Below are positions 2,401 through 42,192 of a DNA stretch of 64,000 nucleotides, piece by piece; position 1 is the stretch's first letter; the number at the start of each line of letters is the position of its first letter. Origin of the DNA: Psychrilyobacter piezotolerans. GTDB taxonomy: Bacteria > Fusobacteriota > Fusobacteriia > Fusobacteriales > Fusobacteriaceae. The stretch spans positions 1-64,000 of the forward strand of contig NZ_QUAJ01000009.1 in assembly GCF_003391055.1 (NCBI RefSeq), given 5' to 3'. The translations under genes were made by a program, and so were the position numbers. Below the pieces are notes generated by a model that saw only the letters and a program-made list of their open reading frames with translations, did not search any database and was not told the DNA's origin.

Positions 2401-2820
2401 TCAACTATCGCTATCTAAGATTTCTTTAAATTTTTCAGGCCAAACAGCCTCTTCTGGATTTTTAGTAGATAAAATCTGTTTTCGGGTTAAGCCTAATGTA
2501 TGACTAAAGTCTACACCGTTAACTTTGGCACTGCGTAAATCAGCATCTTGTAAATGAGCTTCATCTAAATCAGCCCCGCTTAAATCAGCCCCACTTAAAT
2601 TAGCTTTACGTAAATCAGCCCCCCGTAAATTAGTGCCCCGTAAATCAGTACCCCGTAGATCAGCTCCACGTAAATCATCACCACTTAAAACAGTAGCAAC
2701 TAACTTAGCTTTACGTAAATCAGCTTTACGTAAATCAGCCCCCCGTAAATCATTGCCGCTTAAATCAACATCACGTAAATCAGTTTCACTTAAATCAGCA
2801 TCTTCAAATTTTTTTTTCAT
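2401..2820 (-). CDS. Pentapeptide-repeat protein
   Basis: A 139-residue protein made almost entirely of A(D/N)LXX pentapeptide repeats, from about residue 5 to 115 (for example DLRGADLRKADLRKAKL and ANLSGADLSGADLDEAHL). It ends in a non-repeat tail, HTLGLTRKQILSTKN, of the kind that caps the quadrilateral beta-helix in this family. Some members (QnrB, MfpA, McbG) mimic B-form DNA and protect gyrase; most have unknown roles. It is the last gene of a three-gene leftward operon, 16 bases behind its neighbour. The repetitive DNA gives open frames on the opposite strand, but these lack any homology. The function here is not known; self-protection against a toxin or peptide is only a possibility. 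Confidence 0.88.
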   Translation of the reverse strand: MKKKFEDADLSETDLRDVDLSGNDLRGADLRKADLRKAKLVATVLSGDDLRGADLRGTDLRGTNLRGADLRKANLSGADLSGADLDEAHLQDADLRSAKVNGVDFSHTLGLTRKQILSTKNPEEAVWPEKFKEILDSDS

Positions 2821-2836
2821 TTTCCCTCCTTTTTAA

Positions 2837-3175
2837 TTATTCAATATATTTGTCTAATGTTTTTTCAATATTATTCAATGAAGATAATGCTTCTTCACAT
2901 TTCCTGGCTCCCTCTTCCCAAAATTCTTTATACTCACCGCTGCTTTTAGAAAGTTCTATATGATCACTTAAATTTGCTTGGATTGTCTCTCTTTGATCTG
3001 ATATTAAATTTAAATTTACCGTTCCTGTCATTCCTGTTCCTTCTAAATAAATTTCATTATTTTCTACTAAATGAGCTTTTAATACATAAGAAAGATAAAT
3101 TTCATCTCCTTTCGTTGAAAGACCATTAAAAAAAAATGATTTATCAACAATTATTGTTTTTATTATTTCCAACAT
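2837..3175 (-). CDS. Unrecognised 112-residue protein, middle gene of the pentapeptide-repeat operon
   Basis: I do not recognise this family. The protein is hydrophilic and acidic, has no signal peptide or membrane segment, and looks like one small alpha/beta domain: beta-rich in the first 60 residues (MLEIIKTIIVDKSFFFNGLS, then EIYLEGTGMTGTVNLNLI) and helical in the last 50 (KEFWEEGARKCEEALSSLNN), with possible coiled coil near the end. It lies 41 bases behind the Cys-rich gene and 16 bases ahead of the pentapeptide-repeat gene, so co-transcription is likely. A GGATGGGGTGA stretch precedes the ATG. Confidence 0.7.
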   Translation of the reverse strand: MLEIIKTIIVDKSFFFNGLSTKGDEIYLSYVLKAHLVENNEIYLEGTGMTGTVNLNLISDQRETIQANLSDHIELSKSSGEYKEFWEEGARKCEEALSSLNNIEKTLDKYIE

Positions 3176-3216
3176 AATTTCACCCCATCCTTACTTTAAA
3201 AGTATACACCTATTTT

Positions 3217-3519
3217 TTATAAACAATCTATACAATCGACTGCTGTTTCACCTAAAACAGTAATAATACCAGGTACATTATCCGGTCCTCCACAAGCAGA
3301 CACGGCCGCTGCTAAGAATGCAGCACATCTTAGTTTTTTACCCCAACTACAATTTTTTGTTTCTTCTCCCAAAGAGTAAATAGGTTTTTCTAAAACCTCT
3401 TTAAATTTATCTATTGTAACTTGGTCACCAGTAAATACAATTATTTTCCCGCTTCTTAAAAGTTCAGCTCTTTCAAAAATTGCAGATATTTCTTCGCCAC
3501 TAATAAATATTTCCGACAT
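3217..3519 (-). CDS. Small Cys-rich protein, first gene of the pentapeptide-repeat operon
   Basis: A 100-residue protein of unknown family. The start at 3519 is chosen because an AAAGGAGGGA ribosome site lies the right distance upstream; an in-frame ATG 33 bases earlier has no such site. The N-terminal half is charged and leader-like (EEISAIFERAELLRSGK). The C-terminal half carries all five cysteines (residues 57, 65, 76, 96 and 99), a hydrophobic AAFLAAAVSA stretch, a CGGPDN turn and a terminal CIDCL. This two-part build is reminiscent of secreted peptide or bacteriocin precursors, but no modification enzyme or exporter lies next to it, so a metal- or disulfide-containing cytoplasmic protein is equally possible. 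Confidence 0.7.
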   Translation of the reverse strand: MSEIFISGEEISAIFERAELLRSGKIIVFTGDQVTIDKFKEVLEKPIYSLGEETKNCSWGKKLRCAAFLAAAVSACGGPDNVPGIITVLGETAVDCIDCL

Positions 3520-3714
3520 TAAAATCCCTCCTTTTATTTTTATAATGATCATATTATCAAAAAGTTACCCTCAGATATAACCTACCTGATTAAATAATAA
3601 ATTCCTCTATAAAAATAAAAAAATTCAAATGAAAGTTCCGAAATACTCTATCCGGATAAAGGTTGGTATATTTATTTGACAATCTTAAATTTATGATGAA
3701 ATATATATTAATAA

Positions 3715-3990
3715 CTTGACCTGTGCAAATTTTAAAATTCAATAAAATTTTGTATCACAAAATCAGTATTTTTTATGCAGGAATTCTTAATTTCAATAGG
3801 AGTTCCTTTTTTATTTTCCTTCCTTTATTTCATAATAGATATATCTATTGAACAGGCAACTCCTTTGGTGTTTTATGTCGTTACCGTAATATTACCTTAG
3901 GATTTAACTATTTTTTTATTTATTTTTGAAGGAATAATCATTTGTTTTAGGTAATTAAACAAATAAGAAACAAAATTTGCACAAGTCTGG
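3715..3990. mobile_element. MITE-like element with 19-bp terminal inverted repeats and 7-bp flanking direct repeats
   Basis: This gene-free stretch of about 545 bases (3553-4098) holds a 276-bp unit bounded by inverted repeats. The left end CTTGACCTGTGCAAATTTT (3715-3733) matches the reverse complement of the right end, CCAGACTTGTGCAAATTTT (3972-3990), at 16 of 19 positions. Both ends are flanked directly by TTAATAA (3708-3714 and 3991-3997), which looks like a target-site duplication. No open frame of useful length lies inside, so it would depend on a transposase elsewhere. A shorter, more diverged unit with similar ends is at 36.02 kb. I could not assign the ends to a named IS family. Confidence 0.65.
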
Positions 3991-4098
3991 TTAATAAGTA
4001 TATTTTAAAATCAAAAAATATAGTGGTGAAAATACCCAAAAAAACATAAAAAACTTAAAGTACAAAAGAAGATTACTTCCGCAATAAGGGGGGAAAAA

Positions 4099-4449
4099 AT
4101 GAAAATTAATTTTGAAAAAAGAGGAGATGTCGATATAGTAAGTCTTATTGGAAGATTAGATGGAAATACTGCGTCTTCGGTAAAAGATGAAACTATGGAG
4201 AAATTAACTGAAAATACCAAGCTGATTATTGATATGAAAGATTGCGAATATGTGTCAAGTGCAGGTTTAAGAGTTTTGATGATAGTAGCGAAAACATTAA
4301 GAGCAAAGGGTGGAAATGGAGTGCTTGTAGAAATGAATGAAGAAGTCGGTGATGTGATGGAAATGACAGGTTTTGGTAATATTTTCAGATCTTTTAATAC
4401 TATAAATGAGGCACTTGAATTCTTACGAAAGGGAGGGGAGGAATGCTAA
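4099..4449 (+). CDS. STAS-domain anti-sigma factor antagonist (SpoIIAA/RsbV-like)
   Basis: A 116-residue single STAS domain. The usual phosphoacceptor loop is present: DMKDCEYVSSAGLRVLM, with Ser53-Ser54 at the start of the helix; the second serine aligns with the residue phosphorylated in RsbV/SpoIIAA. In this family the unphosphorylated form binds the RsbW-type kinase and releases its client. The kinase and the matching phosphatase lie downstream at 6662 and 7116. The last 7 bases overlap the glgX start (ATGCTAAG inside GAGGAATGCTAAG), so the two genes are translationally coupled. The start has a GGGGGGAA ribosome site. Confidence 0.9.
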   Translation: MKINFEKRGDVDIVSLIGRLDGNTASSVKDETMEKLTENTKLIIDMKDCEYVSSAGLRVLMIVAKTLRAKGGNGVLVEMNEEVGDVMEMTGFGNIFRSFNTINEALEFLRKGGEEC

Positions 4450-6566
4450 GAATAGATGTATTTCCTACTCACCAGCAAAATGGAATAAAATTTAGAAGAG
4501 GAAGGGCCCTGCCTTTTGGATCAACTATTGTTCCAGAAGGAATTAATTTTTCGGTATTTTCAAGATATGCAACCAGCTGTGATTTGGTTTTATTTAATAA
4601 AAAAGAAAAAGAACCCTTTGCGATAATACCCTTCCCTAAAGAATTCAGAATTGGAAATGTATTTGCAATGACTGTTTTTGATCTTGATTTTGAAGATATT
4701 GAATACGGATATAGAGTGGATGGACCATATGATCCTGCAGAGGGGCACCTATACAACAAAGAAAGAATATTGATGGATCCATATGCAAAAGCTGCCGGCG
4801 GAAGAGAAATCTGGGGGATAGAACCAGACTGGAATAATCCCTTCCAGCATAGGTCTAGAATTTTTTTTGATGATTTCGAATGGGAGGGCGAAAAGCCCCT
4901 GGAACTGGAAATGGAAGACTTAATTATTTATGAATTACATGTAAGAAGCTATACAAAACACCAGACTTCAAAAGTAAAGCATCCTGGTACTTATGCTGCC
5001 ATTATTGAAAAAATCCCTTACTTGAAAGAACTGGGAATCAATTGTATAGAGCTTCTTCCTATATATGAATTTGATGAATTTGAAAACTCAAAAATTTCAA
5101 AAGAAAATGGGGAAAAGTTGATGAATTACTGGGGTTATAGTACCGTAGGTTTTTTTGCGCCAAAAGCCGGCTATGCTGCAACAGGTAAATTTGGAATGGA
5201 AGTTGATGAATTAAAAAATCTCATAAAAGAATTACATAAAAATGGTATAGAAATAATTCTTGATGTTGTCTTTAATCATACAGCTGAAGGAAATGAGGAT
5301 GGACCTTATATTTCTTTTAAGGGACATGATAATAAAACCTATTACCTGCTGACTCCGGAAGGACACTACTATAATTTTAGCGGGTGCGGGAATACACTAA
5401 ATTGTAATAATCCCATAGTCAGGAATATGATCCTGGATTGTTTGAGATACTGGGCATCTGAATACCATATTGATGGATTCAGATTCGACCTTGCTTCTAT
5501 TCTTTCAAGAGATCAAGAGGGAGCACCAATGGCAAATCCTCCATTGCTGGAAACATTGGCATTTGATCCGATTTTAGGGAAATGTAAACTTATTGCAGAG
5601 GCATGGGATGCCGGTGGTCTCTATCAGGTGGGTTCATTTCCTTCTTGGGGAAGGTGGGCAGAATGGAATGGGAAATTTAGGGATGATATCAGGAAATTCC
5701 TAAAGGGAGATAAACGGGCGGTTAAAAAAGTGATTGAAAGAATCCAGGGATCACCCGATCTTTATGGATGGGAAAATAGAGGTACCACAGCTTCCATAAA
5801 TTTTATCACCTGCCATGATGGTTTTACTATGATGGATCTTGTTTCATACAATGAAAAACATAATATTGCAAATGGAGAAGACAATTGTGACGGCACAGAT
5901 GACAATGAAAGCTGGAATTGCGGATGGGAGGGTCCCACAGATGACCCGGATATTAATTTTCTGAGGAAAAAACAGATAAAGAATGCAATAATTCTGCTGC
6001 TTGTTAGCCGCGGGATTCCAATGATCCTTTCAGGGGATGAATTTGGAAACACCCAGTTTGGGAATAATAATGCTTACTGTCAGGACAATGAGATTTCATG
6101 GTTAAATTGGGATTTAGTAAAAGAAAATAATGATCTTTTTTCATATTTTAAAAATATAATAGCCTTTAGAAAAGCATATCCTGTTTTAAGGGTCACCAGA
6201 TTTGACAGCTATCATACTGACGCAGGGTATCCTGAGATTTCATGGCATGGAACCAAAGCGTGGAATTTTAATTATGATTCTCTATCATATACGGTAGGAG
6301 TAATGTTTTTTGGGTCTGCTGAGAAGTATGGAACTGAAGATGACGAATTTATTTATATGGCTATGAATTCCCATTGGAAGACCCATGGATTTGAACTTCC
6401 AGTACTCCCCGGGGAAAAGTCTTGGTATGTAGCTGTCAACACGGATATGCCCAGTGGAGAGGATTTCTGGCCTCAAGGGAAGGAACAAAAACTGAAAAAT
6501 CAAAAGAAAATCTTGGTGGGGTCTAGATCTGTAATTGTCTTAATTTCAAAAAAGAACAATAATTAA
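4443..6566 (+). CDS. glgX: Glycogen debranching enzyme, isoamylase type (GH13)
   Basis: A 707-residue enzyme that hydrolyses alpha-1,6 branch points of glycogen or limit dextrin in the cytoplasm. An N-terminal CBM48-like beta domain (about 20-150: FGSTIVPEGINFSVFSRYA) precedes a GH13 barrel. All four conserved regions are visible: DVVFNH (274-279), GFRFDLA (345-351, nucleophile Asp349), EAWD (386-389, acid/base Glu386) and NFITCHDGF (His458-Asp459). Length and order match GlgX/TreX. Its start overlaps the STAS gene by 7 bases and the RsbW-like gene follows about 95 bases later, so it sits inside a partner-switch operon. No other glycogen gene (glgA/B/C/P) is in the window. Confidence 0.93.
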   Translation: MLRIDVFPTHQQNGIKFRRGRALPFGSTIVPEGINFSVFSRYATSCDLVLFNKKEKEPFAIIPFPKEFRIGNVFAMTVFDLDFEDIEYGYRVDGPYDPAEGHLYNKERILMDPYAKAAGGREIWGIEPDWNNPFQHRSRIFFDDFEWEGEKPLELEMEDLIIYELHVRSYTKHQTSKVKHPGTYAAIIEKIPYLKELGINCIELLPIYEFDEFENSKISKENGEKLMNYWGYSTVGFFAPKAGYAATGKFGMEVDELKNLIKELHKNGIEIILDVVFNHTAEGNEDGPYISFKGHDNKTYYLLTPEGHYYNFSGCGNTLNCNNPIVRNMILDCLRYWASEYHIDGFRFDLASILSRDQEGAPMANPPLLETLAFDPILGKCKLIAEAWDAGGLYQVGSFPSWGRWAEWNGKFRDDIRKFLKGDKRAVKKVIERIQGSPDLYGWENRGTTASINFITCHDGFTMMDLVSYNEKHNIANGEDNCDGTDDNESWNCGWEGPTDDPDINFLRKKQIKNAIILLLVSRGIPMILSGDEFGNTQFGNNNAYCQDNEISWLNWDLVKENNDLFSYFKNIIAFRKAYPVLRVTRFDSYHTDAGYPEISWHGTKAWNFNYDSLSYTVGVMFFGSAEKYGTEDDEFIYMAMNSHWKTHGFELPVLPGEKSWYVAVNTDMPSGEDFWPQGKEQKLKNQKKILVGSRSVIVLISKKNNN

Positions 6567-6661
6567 TTGAGATAAATACAGGTGAAAAATTAGAATTCAT
6601 CGTTGAAAAAGGATACCTATTAATAGATATTGTATTTATTCTGAAAACTATGGTGATGAAT

Positions 6662-7069
6662 ATGTCAAAAAAATTTTTTAAGGCAGAGATGGATAATCTC
6701 GAAGAGATGATACAATTTATTCTTTTACAAGCTAAGAGAATAGTTAAAAATAGAAAAATAGATTATCAACTGAGATTAGTTAGTGAGGAAGCATTTATAA
6801 ACATTATAAATTATGCATATGGTAAAGAAAGTGGAGAACTTAAAATTGATTGCAAAATCGTAAACAATGATACGATTTTCATAGAAATAATTGATACAGG
6901 AACTGCCTTTGATCCCCTGCAAAAAGAGGATCCTGATATTACACTGCCGCTAGAGGAAATAAAGGATTGGGGACTTGGAATCTTCATAATCAAAAATATT
7001 ATGGATACAGTTCATTATAAAAGGGAAGATGAACAAAATATACTTACTTTGACTAAAAAGTTACTTTAA
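6662..7069 (+). CDS. RsbW/SpoIIAB-like anti-sigma factor serine kinase
   Basis: A GHKL-type HATPase of about 135 residues. The N box is RLVSEEAFINIINYAY, the G1 box IIDTGTAFDP, and the glycine-rich G2 segment DWGLGIFIIKNIMD. Proteins of this type phosphorylate a STAS antagonist and hold a sigma factor or other client. The start at 6662 is preferred because GGTGAT lies 4 bases upstream and the protein then begins MSKKFFKAEM; in-frame ATGs at 6650 and 6656 are alternatives. No sigma-factor gene is nearby, so the client is unknown. The kinase is encoded between glgX and the PP2C phosphatase. Confidence 0.87.
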   Translation: MSKKFFKAEMDNLEEMIQFILLQAKRIVKNRKIDYQLRLVSEEAFINIINYAYGKESGELKIDCKIVNNDTIFIEIIDTGTAFDPLQKEDPDITLPLEEIKDWGLGIFIIKNIMDTVHYKREDEQNILTLTKKLL

Positions 7070-7115: not shown

Positions 7116-9278
7116 ATGTCGATAAATAAAAAAGCAATAAAAACAAAGATACTGTCATTATTATTGGGAATGACTTCCATCTCTCTGCTTATATTTTTAT
7201 TGATTACCAGTATAGATATAAAAATGAAAGCGAAGGCTTCTTTGGAATCCAGTAAGGAAGTATGGGATGAATCTATTTCAAAGAGTAGAGAAATACTCAG
7301 ATCGGATACTGAAGGGTATATGCGTGCACTTGTAAAATCTCAGGCTGATTATTCTGATTCTTTGTTTAATAAAGTGGAATCTGGTGTTAATGTTATGAGT
7401 GAGTATGCAAAAGTTATTTTTTCTGATCCGACTATGTTTAAATATGTAGATACATATTATAGGGAGGTGGAGCCTGAGAATCCTCAAGATGTTTCAGTTG
7501 TAAATTTACCCCCGGGTATCTCCAGAAATATTATGAAGGAGCAGATAGATCTTTTGAGTAATATGGATTATGTTTTCAGGCCGATCTATTCAAATGATAA
7601 GAATTTATTGTCGGTATACATAGGGACAGAGGATGGAATATACAAAGGCTTTCCCTGGCGGTCTACACTGGTAAAGGATTATGATCCAAGAAAGAGAGGG
7701 TGGTATAGGGAAGCGCTGAAGACAAAAGACCTCGGGTGGACAACTCCCTATATAGACGCAACGCCTTTTCCTGACCGTTATAATGATATGAGTAAAAAAA
7801 TAATTGTGACCTGTTACAAGGCAGTATATGACAATAAGGAAAACTTCGTAGGTGTTGTCGCTTCCGATATAACCGTCAGATCATTGTTGGGAATAATAAA
7901 CACTCAGGTAAAGGATATAGGGACTGCCTATATAATTGATAAAAAAGGAAAGGTAATTGCATATTCTGGCAAGAAAATTCAGTTTGTCTATGAGAACAGT
8001 TATAATTTATTAGAGACTGAAAACAAAGATTATAAAAGGATCGTTGAAAAAATGATCTCTGGAGCAACAGGTTTTGATAGATACTATGATGATAGTGGGA
8101 AGGAAAAGGATTTAGCTTATGCACCAATTCTCAGTACCGGATGGAGTCTTGCAGTTGAGATTTCCGCTGACAAAATAACCGCCAGTGCAGATATAGTTGA
8201 AAATACCTTTGAAAAAATTCATGAACACAGGGACACCGAGATTGATGGAGCAGTGAATAGTGCCCTGAGAGATATGATGATCGCATATCTAATACTGATA
8301 ATAATAATAATATTTGTTGGAGTGAAAATGTCCAATAAACTCTCAAACCCTATTATCAAACTTGTAAATTATGCGGAATTTGTAGGGAGAGGTAACCTGG
8401 ATGAAAGCATCGAAATTAATACAGGCGATGAGATACAGCTCCTTTCCGAATCATTTAATAAAATGACAAGGGATCTAAAACTATATATATATGAATTAAA
8501 AGAGACTGCTGCAGCTGAGGAAAAAATTGAAAATGAACTTGAGATTGCAAAAAGAATACAGGTAAGTATGCTTCCAAGAATTTTCCCCCCATTTCCTACC
8601 AGAAAAGAATTTGATATTTTTGCCAGTATGGAACCTGCAAAAGAAGTTGGGGGAGACTATTATGATTTCTTCTTGATTGATGAAAATAGACTTTGTTTTT
8701 CTATTGCCGATGTATCCGGCAAAGGGGTACCTGCTTCATTGTTTATGGTTATTGCCAAAACTTTAATGAAAAATGAAGCTTTAAGAGGAATTTCTGCCGA
8801 GGAGGTTCTGTTTAATGTAAATAATATGCTTGTGGAAGATAATGATGAATGCTTATTTGTTACAGCCTTTATTTGTATATTAAATATAGCAACAGGGGAA
8901 GTAGAGTATTCAAATGCAGGTCATAATCCACCGTTAATCTGTAGAAAAGGTAACTCTGAATATGAATATTTATCCATGGAAAAAAACTTTGTTGTTGGGG
9001 GAATACCTGGATTTAAGTTTAAGAAAGAAAATTTAAAACTTGAAAATGGAGATATTCTATATCTCTATACAGACGGAGTAACAGAAGCAATGGATAAGGA
9101 AAATAAACAATATTCGGAAACAAGACTCAAAAAATTAATTTCGGAAATGAAAAAAGATAAAAGAGATGTATATAATATTGAAAAAGTAATTAAAGAAGAT
9201 ATTAAAGAATTTGTTGATGGGGCAGAACCATCCGATGATATTACAATGGTTATACTAAAATATAACGGTAATGTATAA
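7116..9278 (+). CDS. Membrane Cache-HAMP-PP2C (SpoIIE/RsbU-type) phosphatase
   Basis: A sensor phosphatase of 720 residues. It has an N-terminal membrane helix (LSLLLGMTSISLLIFLLITS), a large extracytoplasmic double-Cache domain (about 30-380; note the ...YDPRKRGWYREALK and GVVASDITVRSLL motifs), a second helix (MMIAYLILIIIIIFVGVKMS), a HAMP linker with coiled coil, and a C-terminal PP2C domain with EVGGDYYDFF, IADVSGKGVPASLF, SNAGHNPPL, LYTDGVTEAMD and SDDITMVILK. It would dephosphorylate the STAS protein at 4099 in response to an external ligand. The start at 7116 has a GGAG site 10 bases upstream; a TTG at 7083 is less likely. Cache ligands cannot be read from the sequence. Confidence 0.9.
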   Translation: MSINKKAIKTKILSLLLGMTSISLLIFLLITSIDIKMKAKASLESSKEVWDESISKSREILRSDTEGYMRALVKSQADYSDSLFNKVESGVNVMSEYAKVIFSDPTMFKYVDTYYREVEPENPQDVSVVNLPPGISRNIMKEQIDLLSNMDYVFRPIYSNDKNLLSVYIGTEDGIYKGFPWRSTLVKDYDPRKRGWYREALKTKDLGWTTPYIDATPFPDRYNDMSKKIIVTCYKAVYDNKENFVGVVASDITVRSLLGIINTQVKDIGTAYIIDKKGKVIAYSGKKIQFVYENSYNLLETENKDYKRIVEKMISGATGFDRYYDDSGKEKDLAYAPILSTGWSLAVEISADKITASADIVENTFEKIHEHRDTEIDGAVNSALRDMMIAYLILIIIIIFVGVKMSNKLSNPIIKLVNYAEFVGRGNLDESIEINTGDEIQLLSESFNKMTRDLKLYIYELKETAAAEEKIENELEIAKRIQVSMLPRIFPPFPTRKEFDIFASMEPAKEVGGDYYDFFLIDENRLCFSIADVSGKGVPASLFMVIAKTLMKNEALRGISAEEVLFNVNNMLVEDNDECLFVTAFICILNIATGEVEYSNAGHNPPLICRKGNSEYEYLSMEKNFVVGGIPGFKFKKENLKLENGDILYLYTDGVTEAMDKENKQYSETRLKKLISEMKKDKRDVYNIEKVIKEDIKEFVDGAEPSDDITMVILKYNGNV

Positions 9279-9359: not shown

Positions 9360-9635
9360 GTCGTACTAACCGGGGAGCCAGCGGTGCCTTGTAATCTACA
9401 ATCCGCTTTAGTAGAGGTGATGTCGACCTGAGGATCGGTCTGTCATAGCAGGTCCTGTTAGAAAATGTTGAGAATAGAGTCCTATACGGCGAAATGCCAG
9501 TGAACCGTGTCAGATCCGGAAGGAAGCAGCACTAAGTTGGTTATTTTGGGTGTTATAGGGTAGCTTTGTTTGAGTTTTTTAATAGGGTGCCGTGTGGTTG
9601 GAGTGTTTTCGAAGGTCGATGTACGGCTTTTTTTT
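9360..9635 (+). ncRNA. ffs: Signal recognition particle RNA, large bacterial type (with Alu domain)
   Basis: The S-domain hallmark GTCAGATCCGGAAGGAAGCA (the GGAA tetraloop and asymmetric loop that bind Ffh) is at about 9509-9530. The 5' part (CCGGGGAGCCAGCGGTGCC) has the look of an Alu domain, so this is the roughly 270-nt form found in Bacillus and clostridia rather than the 4.5S form. The ends pair as GTCGTAC (9360-9366) with GTACGGC (9621-9627), followed by an eight-T run that also serves as terminator. The RNA joins Ffh to target membrane proteins to the translocon. The minus-strand glycosylase gene ends in the T-run. Confidence 0.93.
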
Positions 9636-38200: not shown

Positions 38201-39022
38201 TTAATTTTTATAAATTTCATATGTGTAATGAGATTGTAGTGGAACTTTTTTATATTTTAATGATTTTGTAACAATTTTTTCAAATTCATCAAGATCCATC
38301 GGATCTACAGCAAAAACCCCTTTGGGAATGGAAACCCATCTTTTTAATATTTTATCACGAAACCTTATTCTGACAAACACACCTGCAATATGACGACGAG
38401 GTGTTATAAACATTACATTTTTTTTTATATTTAATCTTCTGTATCTGAATAGATAAAATGTTCTATATATGACATCATTCTCTAAAAAAATAAGTCTATT
38501 GAAGAGATAATAAAAATATGAATGTGCTGCGTAATGCGAGGCATAAATCAAAAAAAATCCAGGAAAGGTTATACCTGTTTCAATCATTGAATAGAGTATC
38601 ATAAGTATAAATATGAAAGAAAAAAATAAAAACAGTGGTATCCCCCAGATAATAACTTTCTTTTTTCTATATTTATATTGATAGGGATTATCATCTTCAT
38701 CTATCAGATCCTCTAGATATTTGGATGTAGTTGTTCTGTAGGTATTTTCCTTACATATCGTTACGAGCTTCCCCAGCTTATTAAATACTTCCTCTATACT
38801 ATCCTCTGAAAACATGAAATATATTTCCCTTGTCTTTCTGTTTCTCATGATAGATATGATGATATTATTTTTTTCGATCCTCTTTTTTCTGATATCACCC
38901 AGTTTTATCATTGTTTTTTTCTTTAAAAATCTGCCCGATTCTTTGACGATATTTCTGTCTGTTAGAATTGTATTTTCATTTTCATGTATTATCGCTTCAT
39001 TATCTTTAAGCCTGTATCTCAT
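38201..39022 (-). CDS. Unrecognised membrane protein, 273 residues
   Basis: I do not recognise a family. The N-terminal third is soluble and basic (RLKDNEAIIHENENTILTDR), similar in style to the PH-like domain of the upstream gene; two adjacent membrane helices follow (VIIWGIPLFLFFSFIFILMI and a TFPGFFLIYASHYAAH segment), then a basic soluble region (RYRRLNIKKNVMFITPRRHI). The start at 39022 fits a GGGAG site 8 bases upstream; an overlapping GTG at 39031 is possible. It is probably translated with the 39028-39558 gene. Confidence 0.65.
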   Translation of the reverse strand: MRYRLKDNEAIIHENENTILTDRNIVKESGRFLKKKTMIKLGDIRKKRIEKNNIIISIMRNRKTREIYFMFSEDSIEEVFNKLGKLVTICKENTYRTTTSKYLEDLIDEDDNPYQYKYRKKKVIIWGIPLFLFFSFIFILMILYSMIETGITFPGFFLIYASHYAAHSYFYYLFNRLIFLENDVIYRTFYLFRYRRLNIKKNVMFITPRRHIAGVFVRIRFRDKILKRWVSIPKGVFAVDPMDLDEFEKIVTKSLKYKKVPLQSHYTYEIYKN

Positions 39023-39027
39023 AACTA

Positions 39028-39558
39028 TCACTCCCTTCCTTTCAGTTTACTTTCAATTTTAAATGCGATTGTCTTTGCTTCATCTGCAGTGAGGCTGGAT
39101 AAAAGAGAGTATGCTTTATATTCAGATTTTTTGTTCTGTAACATTATTATTACTTGAGGAGTATAATTTAAACCTTGATACGAAGCATTTTTTATTTCTG
39201 AGTAATAAAATTTATATGAAAAAAATCTAAAAGCATTCCTGATTATTACACCTTTATCAGTTATTACCATTTTACTGATCCAGCCTTCTATAATTTGATT
39301 TAAAGGCCATAAAAAATAAAAAGCTAAAACAAGCAGAATTCCCCACTCTCCATCTAAAATAAATTTTCTAAGTGTAAAAATAACATAGATTCCAATTAAA
39401 ATCATAAATCCGGCTATTAATTTATAAACTGTCCCTTTTTTATAGGATATATATTCCACTACCTCATCTTTATCCAGCAATTTTCTTATTACACGGTCTT
39501 TTTTGAGTATTTCTTCAATACTCTTTTTCCCGTTGGTTCCCGTATTTGAAGTTTCCAT
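39028..39558 (-). CDS. Bacterial PH-domain-like membrane protein
   Basis: 176 residues: a charged N-terminus (EEILKKDRVIRKLLDKDEVV), two membrane helices (about 48-66 and 73-92; KLIAGFMILIGIYVIFTL and GILLVLAFYFLWPLN), then a domain like bPH/DUF304 (MVITDKGVIIRNAFRFFSYK followed by YYSEIKNASYQ). Such proteins are common, with no defined role. First gene of a two-gene leftward unit; the next gene starts within a few bases of its stop. Confidence 0.6.
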   Translation of the reverse strand: METSNTGTNGKKSIEEILKKDRVIRKLLDKDEVVEYISYKKGTVYKLIAGFMILIGIYVIFTLRKFILDGEWGILLVLAFYFLWPLNQIIEGWISKMVITDKGVIIRNAFRFFSYKFYYSEIKNASYQGLNYTPQVIIMLQNKKSEYKAYSLLSSLTADEAKTIAFKIESKLKGRE

Positions 39559-39926: not shown

Positions 39927-40931
39927 TTAATAATTTTCAAAATCACTGAAAATATTTTCATTTTCACTACTCAAACGATCTATTTCTTCATAGATTTTAT
40001 CCATGGTATAATAATAATTTTCATTTCTAATCCCTTTCTTATAATCTCTTTTAGTAATTTCATATTTTTTACCATCTTTAGCATCCCTAAAGGCATTTTT
40101 TTGTATAACCAACATTTTATCTGTTTCCTCTTCAAGAAGAGTGTTATCGAATCGTAAGAAAAATCTATCGATATGATTATTATATTTCGAAAATTCTTTC
40201 ACGAATCCTTTGATAGTTTTAAGGTATTCTTCTTTGGATATTTTTTTCTTCTTCAAGTCCTCTTTATCGGAAAAAATCATTATTTCTATACGATTATCTT
40301 TAAATTTCTTTTTTAAGAGTTCCTTATAGGAATCAACCATCCATTTTTCGCTAATCGTGATACTTATCTCTGGAGAATATTTCCAAGAAAAATGTTTACT
40401 GATCATCTTTTCATAGAATTTATCGACTTCCCTATAAAAAATTACCCTTCTGTAGTTATCGACTATCTCTCCATCCCTTATCCATACTCCTACGGGGAAT
40501 TTTTTATCATGTTTTAGATATCCTCCTATAGCTGGATACCATTTCATACCATGAGCTTCATCTCCGTAATAATTGTAATAAATTCTAGTTACTACGAAAT
40601 CAAAGTCATATTTTTCCTTAAAATGTTTTTCCACTCGTTCTTTAACGAGAGGATGGAAAAGATTGACTCCTATAGGTTTTTTTCCCATTGAATGATATGA
40701 TTTGTAAAACAAAAACATAAATAAAAATGGTAAAATAAACTTAACTATCATAGTAAAATCTTTACTTTTGATAGTTTTCCATGAAAAAAATATAAACATA
40801 GGAATAACTAACAAAATAAATGGGAACAGTATATTGGGAAAAATAATCAGTAAGACAGAATAAATCACCGCCAATATAATTGATTTTCCACCAGTGTTTT
40901 TTAATAGTTCTTTAATTTTTTTTATTTCCAT
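39927..40931 (-). CDS. Unrecognised membrane protein, 334 residues
   Basis: No family recognised. The N-terminal 95 residues hold two to four membrane helices (SIILAVIYSVLLIIFPNILF, ILLVIPMFIFFSW, VKFILPFLFMFLFY). The long remainder is hydrophilic, with VTRIYYNYYGDEAHGMKWYP, several Lys/Glu-rich helices (KFYEKMISKHFSW) and an acidic C-terminus. AGGAGGCAAAT precedes the ATG. Its 5' region is long and full of repeats; a c-di-GMP riboswitch on the same strand starts about 840 bases upstream, so it is the nearest candidate target. Confidence 0.65.
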   Translation of the reverse strand: MEIKKIKELLKNTGGKSIILAVIYSVLLIIFPNILFPFILLVIPMFIFFSWKTIKSKDFTMIVKFILPFLFMFLFYKSYHSMGKKPIGVNLFHPLVKERVEKHFKEKYDFDFVVTRIYYNYYGDEAHGMKWYPAIGGYLKHDKKFPVGVWIRDGEIVDNYRRVIFYREVDKFYEKMISKHFSWKYSPEISITISEKWMVDSYKELLKKKFKDNRIEIMIFSDKEDLKKKKISKEEYLKTIKGFVKEFSKYNNHIDRFFLRFDNTLLEEETDKMLVIQKNAFRDAKDGKKYEITKRDYKKGIRNENYYYTMDKIYEEIDRLSSENENIFSDFENY

Positions 40932-41129
40932 ATTTGCCTCCTATTTTTGATCTTTCCTTAAAAGTTTCATTTTATATTGAAATCCACTGAGTAGATTTAA
41001 AAACCTTTGATTCTTCATCACTGAGAAAAGAAATAAAGAATTACACAAAGAATCTTTTTTCAGTCGCATAACTGAAACTTAGAGTTATGAATATAACTCT
41101 GTAGTTGAACTTAGTCAGATATTAGAGAT

Positions 41130-41300
41130 TGTTTGAAATTACAATCTCAATATTCCTGTAGATTACACAGAACTTATACGAATATTAACTTTCGATATCA
41201 CTTAATAAAGAAAGTTAAATGTATTACAGATATTTTTAAAGTTTATAGTCATCAGACCCTCTCTCTTACTCTCTTTCCCTCAAAGGGAGAAAGAATTTTA
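41130..41300. repeat. Dispersed-repeat fragments upstream of the 40931 gene
   Basis: Part of the 1.26-kb gene-free stretch 40932-42192. It carries a GTAGATTACACAGA fragment of the 'rATTACACrrA' family and a 'CCCTCT' hairpin unit (41263-41297: CTCTTTCCCTCAAAGGGAGAAAG). I saw no gene between 40932 and 41130. Confidence 0.5.
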
Positions 41301-41309
41301 TATTTTAAT

Positions 41310-41608
41310 CGAAGTTTATAGTCGTCCTACTTCTCAGTAATCATCTAGCGAGTTTCGTCGAACCCACCATGTCCGTCAGGCATCTCACTAAGAAACGGAG
41401 ATTCATGGCATCTGCCCACCAAGACAATTATAAACTTCTTGACTTTCTTTGGTTCGTTTCTTGTGTCAATACAAGAAATGAACCCGTATTAAAGAGGGAC
41501 TCTTTAGAATTTTATTTTTGTCGCAGATTACAGAGATTTCCTTAGATTTTTGTACTCGTGAATCAAAATAAAAAAAAACTAAAATCTAAGGGTGTCACCC
41601 TTAACAGA
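41310..41608 (+). repeat. Large dispersed intergenic repeat, copy B
   Basis: Shares AATCGAAGTTTATAGTCGTC at the head, AACTTCTTGACTTTCTTTGG in the middle and CTAAAATCTAAGGGTGTCAC plus CCTT at the tail with copy A; the centre differs. It also carries GTCGCAGATTACAGAGATTT of the dispersed 'AATCTGTGTAATCTGCGAC' family. The tail is a small hairpin (AAGGGTG/CACCCTT). Confidence 0.72.
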
Positions 41609-41745
41609 CTCTATTTACTTTTTATCTGAAAAAGAAATAGAGGAAAGAAAAGCAGAAACTTTGGAACCTTCTGACGCAATATTCTTGATTTTGAAAAAAT
41701 TCTAGAGTTTTGGTGATGCCCCTTGCGGGTAGACTCTCCTCGATA

Positions 41746-41773
41746 CAAAAAAATACAGACCCCAAAAGATCTG
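41746..41773 (-). terminator. Expression-platform terminator of the c-di-GMP riboswitch
   Basis: On the minus strand CAGATC-TTTTGG-GGTCTG is followed by TATTTTTTT. Its 5' arm adjoins the 3' side of aptamer helix P1, so the two folds could compete. Confidence 0.7.
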
Positions 41774-41840
41774 CAACTGGCTGCCATTTTAAAGGTCCTA
41801 TAGCTTTGCGTCACAGGATTTCCCCTGTTTTGCCAATATT
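41773..41840 (-). promoter_or_regulatory. Cyclic di-GMP-I (GEMM-I) riboswitch aptamer
   Basis: Read on the minus strand: TTGGCAAAAC, then the P2 hairpin ACAGGG-GAAA-TCCTGT with a GNRA tetraloop, then the hallmark GACGCAAAGCTATAGG, then ACCTTTAAAATGGCAGCCAG and TTGC closing P1 with GCAA. Every conserved block of the GEMM-I consensus is present in order. A promoter lies about 70 bases upstream and a terminator hairpin begins at the last base. The next gene on this strand starts about 840 bases away (40931), beyond an inserted repeat. Confidence 0.92.
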
Positions 41841-41907
41841 TTTAATTTTTAATTAAAAAATTGTTGTTTTTTAATTAAAAGTGAAGTGTTTTTAACTATT
41901 TCTTTAT

Positions 41908-41936
41908 AGAGTAGAACATTTTCTTTTTGTTGTCAA
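41908..41936 (-). promoter_or_regulatory. Promoter of the riboswitch transcript
   Basis: Minus strand: TTGACA (41936-41931), 17-base spacer, TACTCT (41913-41908). The aptamer begins about 60 bases past the expected start site. Confidence 0.7.
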
Positions 41937-42192
41937 CTTTTACAATATCTGACAATTATAATTTTTTATAGTTTAGCTTAATAAGTTTTTCTTCCCCATG
42001 AGCCTTATTGTACTTACAGCCAGGATTTTGAAACTTTACTGCCATCCTCATGATTTCGATCCCTCTTCTCATTCAGGTAGTTATTTGATATAATTATACT
42101 AAAAATATATATAAAATAAAAAGATATTAAAGATGTCACATTAATATGATATGGGTATAAATAAAAAAACCTAGGTAGAAGGGAGAATTAAT

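Follow-up and report, generated by a model that had tools for sequence, protein, structure and literature searches.

A riboswitch that is complete but has no gene beside it raises an obvious question: what does it control? We examined such an element in a window of 64,000 nucleotides (C9:1-64000) from Psychrilyobacter piezotolerans, whose genome comprises 3.36 Mb in 86 contigs. The initial annotation called it an orphan c-di-GMP-I (GEMM-I) riboswitch with no adjacent gene and offered three readings: a long leader to a membrane protein gene, a native target lost through repeat insertion, or a stand-alone small RNA. Our analysis favors, at a probability of about 0.65, a c-di-GMP-I ON riboswitch that would lead an operon of membrane-protein genes starting at 40931, 39558, and 39031 (minus strand), with ligand binding, direction, and read-through all deduced from sequence. 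In kind this is an ordinary riboswitch with an unusually long leader, and it is informative on how switches lose genes. Its likely target appears to have been hidden by repeat DNA.

The aptamer and its ligand

In an Rfam covariance search with cmscan, positions 41844-41769 of the minus strand matched RF01051 at 60.1 bits, above the gathering score of 35; the E value was 2.9e-9 when the full window was searched and 9.5e-11 over 2.1 kb. This agrees with the GEMM-I assignment made initially, together with a GNRA-capped P2 and conserved aptamer motifs; indeed, the sequence contains a GAAA-capped P2, GACGCAAAGC, and GGCAGCCAGTTGC. Equivalents of the ligand-contact residues are all present: G20 corresponds to G 41833, A47 lies in GACGCAAAGC, and C92 corresponds to C 41773, the numbering being by analogy with Vc2 as given in the available part of PMC11218506. 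Counted over the 50 copies of exactly 76 nt, the P2 loop is GAAA in 48, and each of the six base pairs of P2 is a standard pair in 47-50 copies and occurs as several pair types, a compensatory change. The element is a genuine c-di-GMP-I riboswitch, a known class, and is predicted to bind its ligand.

With 40 GGDEF and 10 EAL matches, the genome should be able to make that ligand. None of these matches falls on contig C9, which extends to the whole contig the initial statement that the window has no GGDEF or EAL gene. The base before CAAA in the aptamer is G, which presumably points to c-di-GMP. In all, the genome holds eight c-di-GMP-I copies: a short form of 76 nt and a long form of 83-87 nt account for four each. 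Other short copies stand before an L-type lectin adhesin and before a beta-helix-like protein (an assignment below the Pfam cut-off), and so a sessile, cell-surface role would fit. Long copies without a terminator (L088 5130-5216, minus strand, and others) have a GGGGG ribosome site and a start codon right after the aptamer, suggesting translational control; by eye, the genes that follow encode TPR-like proteins. Elsewhere in the window, positions 9361-9626 (plus strand) encode a bacterial large signal recognition particle RNA (161.2 bits).

The promoter proposed initially is present as described. TTGACA (41936-41931) is followed after 17 bases by TACTCT (41913-41908); the -10 is poor, matching TATAAT at 3 of 6 positions. 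A generic promoter scanner did not list the site. The corresponding promoter of a paralogous riboswitch on another contig of the same genome, C26, reads TTGACA-17-TATATT. Between promoter and aptamer lies an A+T-rich hairpin common to the window and C26 and absent from the matching loci of two other genomes, G006 and G007. A 31-codon ORF (41956-42051, minus strand) that starts ATGAGGATGGCAG and has a purine-rich stretch upstream ends just before the riboswitch promoter.

A duplicated cassette and its operon

The ATG at 40931 lies 837 bases beyond the end of the aptamer, matching the initial figure of about 840 to the nearest same-strand gene. The repeat noted between the two is also real: a query of 1,006 bases (40940-41945) gave 82 genome matches, itself and paralogous riboswitches included. 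This region is built as a mosaic of short, dispersed modules of repeat in either orientation. The leader also gave weak Rfam matches (snR83, hveRNA, and miRNAs), all far under their gathering scores, and we took them as chance.

The paralogous locus on C26 gives the apparent orphan a candidate target. Its short copy has the same promoter, aptamer, and terminator as the window copy, at 87% identity, and the aptamers agree at 71 of 76 positions. There, the switch is followed by three related membrane genes and then, in unchanged order, by homologues of the 334-, 176-, and 276-aa genes of the window. The three extra genes encode 261 aa, 240 aa, and a product that is apparently split (122 + 134 aa); the 176-aa protein is related to all three. 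Comparing window and C26 DNA (L087), we found three main colinear blocks: 41941-41747 with 2598-2791 (87%), 41001-39900 with 5640-6740 (91%), and 39683-38184 with 7230-8738 (81%). Homology begins at 41941, 5 bases 5′ of TTGACA, and runs to 38184, 17 bases beyond the stop of the last gene. The interval separating the first two blocks is filled by 745 bases of dispersed repeat in the window, and in C26 by 2.85 kb that includes the three extra genes.

Since promoter, aptamer, and terminator recur on C26 together with the three genes downstream, as a single duplicated cassette, the long-leader reading is the best supported: the 40931-38201 operon is most likely led by this switch via a leader of about 840 bases. 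The orphan label is therefore not upheld. The window switch looks orphaned because repeat DNA occupies the place of the three genes that stand directly 3′ of the switch in C26. Loss of these genes from the window is favored by G006, in which the switch is followed by a remnant from the same gene family. The second initial reading, a target lost through repeats, is thus right about these three genes, which are absent with repeat DNA in their place; a tblastn search with the C26 proteins found no remnants of them in the window leader. It does not extend to the rest of the operon, which remains, with dN/dS between window and C26 copies of 0.37 for the 334-aa gene, 0.26 for the 176-aa gene, and 0.39 for the 276-aa gene. 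These values indicate that the three genes have been under constraint. Coordinates are collected in Table 1.

Table 1. Riboswitch, leader, and operon features in the window
Feature	Positions	Strand	Basis
Sigma-70-type promoter, TTGACA-17-TACTCT	41908..41936	-	Sequence reading; counterpart in C26 paralogue
A+T-rich hairpin, promoter-aptamer interval	41842..41885	-	Inverted repeat I2, folded
c-di-GMP-I (GEMM-I) aptamer, short 76-nt form	41769..41844	-	RF01051, 60.1 bits
Intrinsic terminator hairpin with T7	41747..41775	-	Terminator scanner, folding; 5′ arm includes C92 equivalent
Dispersed-repeat stretch (745 bases)	41002..41746	-	Non-colinear with C26 (L087) 2792-5639
Second terminator-like hairpin in repeat, possible further attenuator	41586..41604	-	Scanner
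70-base segment shared with C26 before the 334-aa gene; contains an AGGAGG ribosome-binding site	40932..41001	-	DNA comparison
334-aa predicted membrane protein, first remaining operon gene	39927..40931	-	87% identity to C26 copy
176-aa protein, two predicted membrane helices then strand-rich domain	39028..39558	-	75% identity to C26 copy
276-aa membrane protein, last cassette gene	38201..39031	-	69% identity to C26 copy

Does transcription from the switch still reach these genes? The switch could be a relic, its connection cut by the repeat and the hairpin within it, with the operon running on another promoter and the switch making a functionless short RNA. The 745-base repeat stretch and the hairpin at 41604-41586 speak for this, as do the G006 locus, with its stop-codon remnant, and the G007 locus, where the gene is gone; across 837 bases, a weak promoter of the operon genes' own is also possible. 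The hairpin folds, and its T-run does not directly abut. Against a relic, the aptamer, the terminator, and the TTGACA-17 spacing are intact, and the aptamer has stayed close to its C26 counterpart. In the leader (41746-40931, minus strand), a single promoter-like site was listed, CTGACT-17-TATATT at 41118-41090 (9/12), and such sites are no more numerous than in shuffles. We consider the relic rather unlikely and continue with the long leader. It is an extreme one: among 54 short copies, only that of G007 (1,949 bases) lies farther than the window copy from a same-strand ORF of at least 80 aa.

With the operon itself, the likely c-di-GMP regulon of this member of the Fusobacteriaceae would gain an uncharacterized, lineage-restricted set of membrane proteins. 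As stated initially, the 334-aa membrane protein has no known family, neither Pfam nor NCBIfam giving a match above the curated cut-off; it is present in 1 of 98 Fusobacteriota genomes, and a scan of the genome contigs found no named relatives. A defense system was considered as well, and the three operon genes had no PADLOC match. AlphaFold2 models were both of low confidence (mean pLDDT 51.8 and 56.4); in that of the 176-aa protein, two helices precede a run of strands, and a further helix closes the chain. By eye, the 176-aa family resembles bacterial PH-domain membrane proteins, a likeness for which Pfam gives no support.

The terminator and the predicted switching mechanism

How would such a switch work? 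In the absence of c-di-GMP, the stretch of RNA that directly follows the aptamer would fold into the terminator, whose 5′ arm would take the ligand-pairing C 41773; transcription would end at about 41750, and a short RNA would be released. With c-di-GMP bound, C 41773 would be held by the ligand and the terminator would be left incomplete, allowing read-through of about 840 bases, mostly repeat DNA, into the operon, which would then be ON. In the window copy of what appears to be a duplicated cassette, this path would run through the repeat DNA that occupies the place of three genes 3′ of the switch.

The terminator that had been annotated was recovered by a scanner as a hairpin plus T7 at 41775-41747, overlapping the aptamer end. 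It consists of TGCAGATCTTTTGGGGTCTGTA followed by T7, a 9-bp hairpin directly 3′ of the aptamer with a predicted energy of -9.2 kcal/mol. Its 5′ arm starts at the U of UGC, in which C is 41773, the C92 equivalent. In predicted folding of growing transcripts, the aptamer forms before the full hairpin, and C41773 is in the terminator from length 145. Keeping UGC unpaired would cost 5.6 kcal/mol in the window copy; the energy comparison covers the short copies whose terminator overlaps (42) or adjoins (2) the base.

We then considered how general this overlap is. The terminator count took in 83 copies, 55 short (75-77 nt) and 28 long (79-90 nt), including the eight of the window's genome and one from G020 that scores 29.9 bits, under the gathering score. 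The 5′ arm of the strongest terminator covers C92 in 42 of the 55 short copies versus 1 of the 28 long ones. As for the other short copies, the arm starts one base later in 2, the hairpin lies farther down in 7, and none was found by our criteria in 4, two of which (G006:C2:2208542 and G033:C21:38158) have a similar hairpin by eye. The 3′ arms of the terminators are diverse yet stay complementary to the conserved UUGC, in support of an overlap that is functional. Across the family, the short class would thus offer a natural set of sequence-diverse candidate ON switches with one logic.

The direction of switching cannot be read from the class, since class I switches of Clostridioides difficile are called OFF, and an OFF switch of that kind was weighed for the window copy. 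Passages of PMC11477304 describe the C. difficile class I switches in this way, and in the predicted fold aptamer P2/P3 and the terminator coexist. However, the terminator needs the C92 equivalent, and the sole 7-bp antiterminator, which we drew by eye in the window copy by pairing GGACCUU of P3 with GGGGUCU of the terminator, is broken in C26. This makes an OFF switch improbable. P1 was likewise rejected as the competing stem: formed by bases 5′ of G20 and 3′ of C92, it has 4 of 6 pairs in the window copy, and across the short class it does not exceed shifted controls (2.12 versus 2.55 of 6 pairs; 49 of the 50 76-nt copies, G020 left out). Six terminator base pairs are still possible with C92 held. 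Because P1 is not above controls and these six pairs remain possible, the ON direction that we infer derives from the C92 argument and from nothing else.

Known systems provide parallels. The pilM riboswitch of Geobacter metallireducens, a GEMM-I ON switch described in the available part of PMC9262584, has a terminator that sequesters the ligand-pairing C75, so that terminator and ligand-bound aptamer exclude each other via a cytosine, as proposed here for 41773; unlike the window switch, which is predicted to sense c-di-GMP, pilM senses cGAMP and has other targets, and the window leader is far longer. Bc3-Bc4-Bc5 of Bacillus thuringiensis, a triple c-di-GMP-I riboswitch, is ON by the same logic according to passages of PMC4759541: the ligand-site cytosine and neighboring stems are kept from the terminator when ligand is bound. 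The window copy, in contrast, is single, and host phylum and target genes differ. For length, the nearest comparison is Bc1 of B. thuringiensis, with a 220-base expression platform and two intrinsic terminators before the gene; the window leader, at about 840 bases and largely of dispersed repeats, exceeds it. In the same partly available source (PMC11218506), c-di-GMP had hardly any effect on Bc1 in vivo, which calls for caution over the window switch. The accessible portion of PMC9943018, considered for antisense-acting switches, has no bearing on the window locus. Among openly licensed PMC papers found under the genus and phylum names, no title names c-di-GMP riboswitches of Psychrilyobacter, and the words c-di-GMP and riboswitch are absent from the main text, as available, of a Psychrilyobacter genome paper (PMC10580919).

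Related loci and the fate of the switch

RF01051 matches occurred in 18 of 61 genomes searched. A search with the 176-aa protein matched 2 of the 61, the window's own and G006, and a profile of the family matched 4 of 98 Fusobacteriota genomes, two of them weakly (E values of 3.5e-4 and 8.8e-4). In this profile search, strong members stand at three loci only, on C9, on C26, and in G006, and all three are preceded, on their own strand, by a short c-di-GMP-I copy. For comparison, the 3-kb stretches that follow copies take up about 0.4% of strand positions. Because C9 and C26 are paralogues, at most two independent witnesses speak for the linkage, the second being the G006 remnant.

Stop codons interrupt the related gene that follows the switch in G006, a remnant; the corresponding site of G007 has no same-strand ORF of at least 80 aa for 1,949 bases. 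The terminators of both carry a mismatch (-5.1 versus -9.2 kcal/mol in the window), and their promoters are off consensus, with poor spacing or a poor -10. The series from C26 (full operon) through the window (repeats) and G006 (remnant) to G007 (no gene) may depict how riboswitches become orphans.

Could the short terminated transcript itself be the product, a stand-alone c-di-GMP-regulated small RNA or signal sponge? The unit has its own promoter and terminator; passages of PMC11477304 list a c-di-GMP-I switch without a known target in C. difficile, CD2517/CD2517.1; and the geneless G007 aptamer is identical to that of G006 at 74 of 76 positions (97%), although two neighboring genes are 89.4 and 86.9% identical. 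If the aptamers changed at the rates of these genes, the probability of two or fewer changes would be 0.010 and 0.0018, for a pair picked after seeing the data and with other pairs mostly alike. When nine G006/G007 pairs were matched by downstream genes and sequence, the eight others had aptamers 80-100% identical, which argues that the conservation is not special; as evidence against simple decay, it is only a hint. Moreover, a short RNA comes from every terminator-controlled switch, and the mismatched terminators and poor promoters of G006 and G007 look like decay. At the window locus, where the initial annotation had allowed for such an RNA, operon homology accounts for the element, and the paralogous locus supplies a target operon that the CD2517/CD2517.1 orphan lacks. 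We found no support there for a stand-alone RNA and judge it very unlikely. It is also doubtful, and only slightly less so, that after target decay some copies persist as selected free-standing c-di-GMP-binding small RNAs, with the window copy as an intermediate. For the window, a switch leading its operon through a long leader stays the preferred reading.

The geneless G007 copy (L074 2130-4155, G007:C2), with its conserved aptamer, is a possible true orphan. Spread by phage was considered, and the only viral-contig match of the short-class pattern (L149), on the minus strand, falls inside an ORF of phage structural type, so we took it as a chance coding match. Finally, short switches occur as tandem pairs, 166-168 bases apart, in L067 (G006:C1:553405 and 553571), L069 (G007:C3:967476 and 967644), and L070 (G003:C428:1259 and 1425), to which Bc3-Bc4-Bc5 is a close parallel (PMC4759541, in the part available). 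Each of the paired switches has a C92-covering terminator, and an adhesin-like gene follows, which in the window's genome has a single switch.
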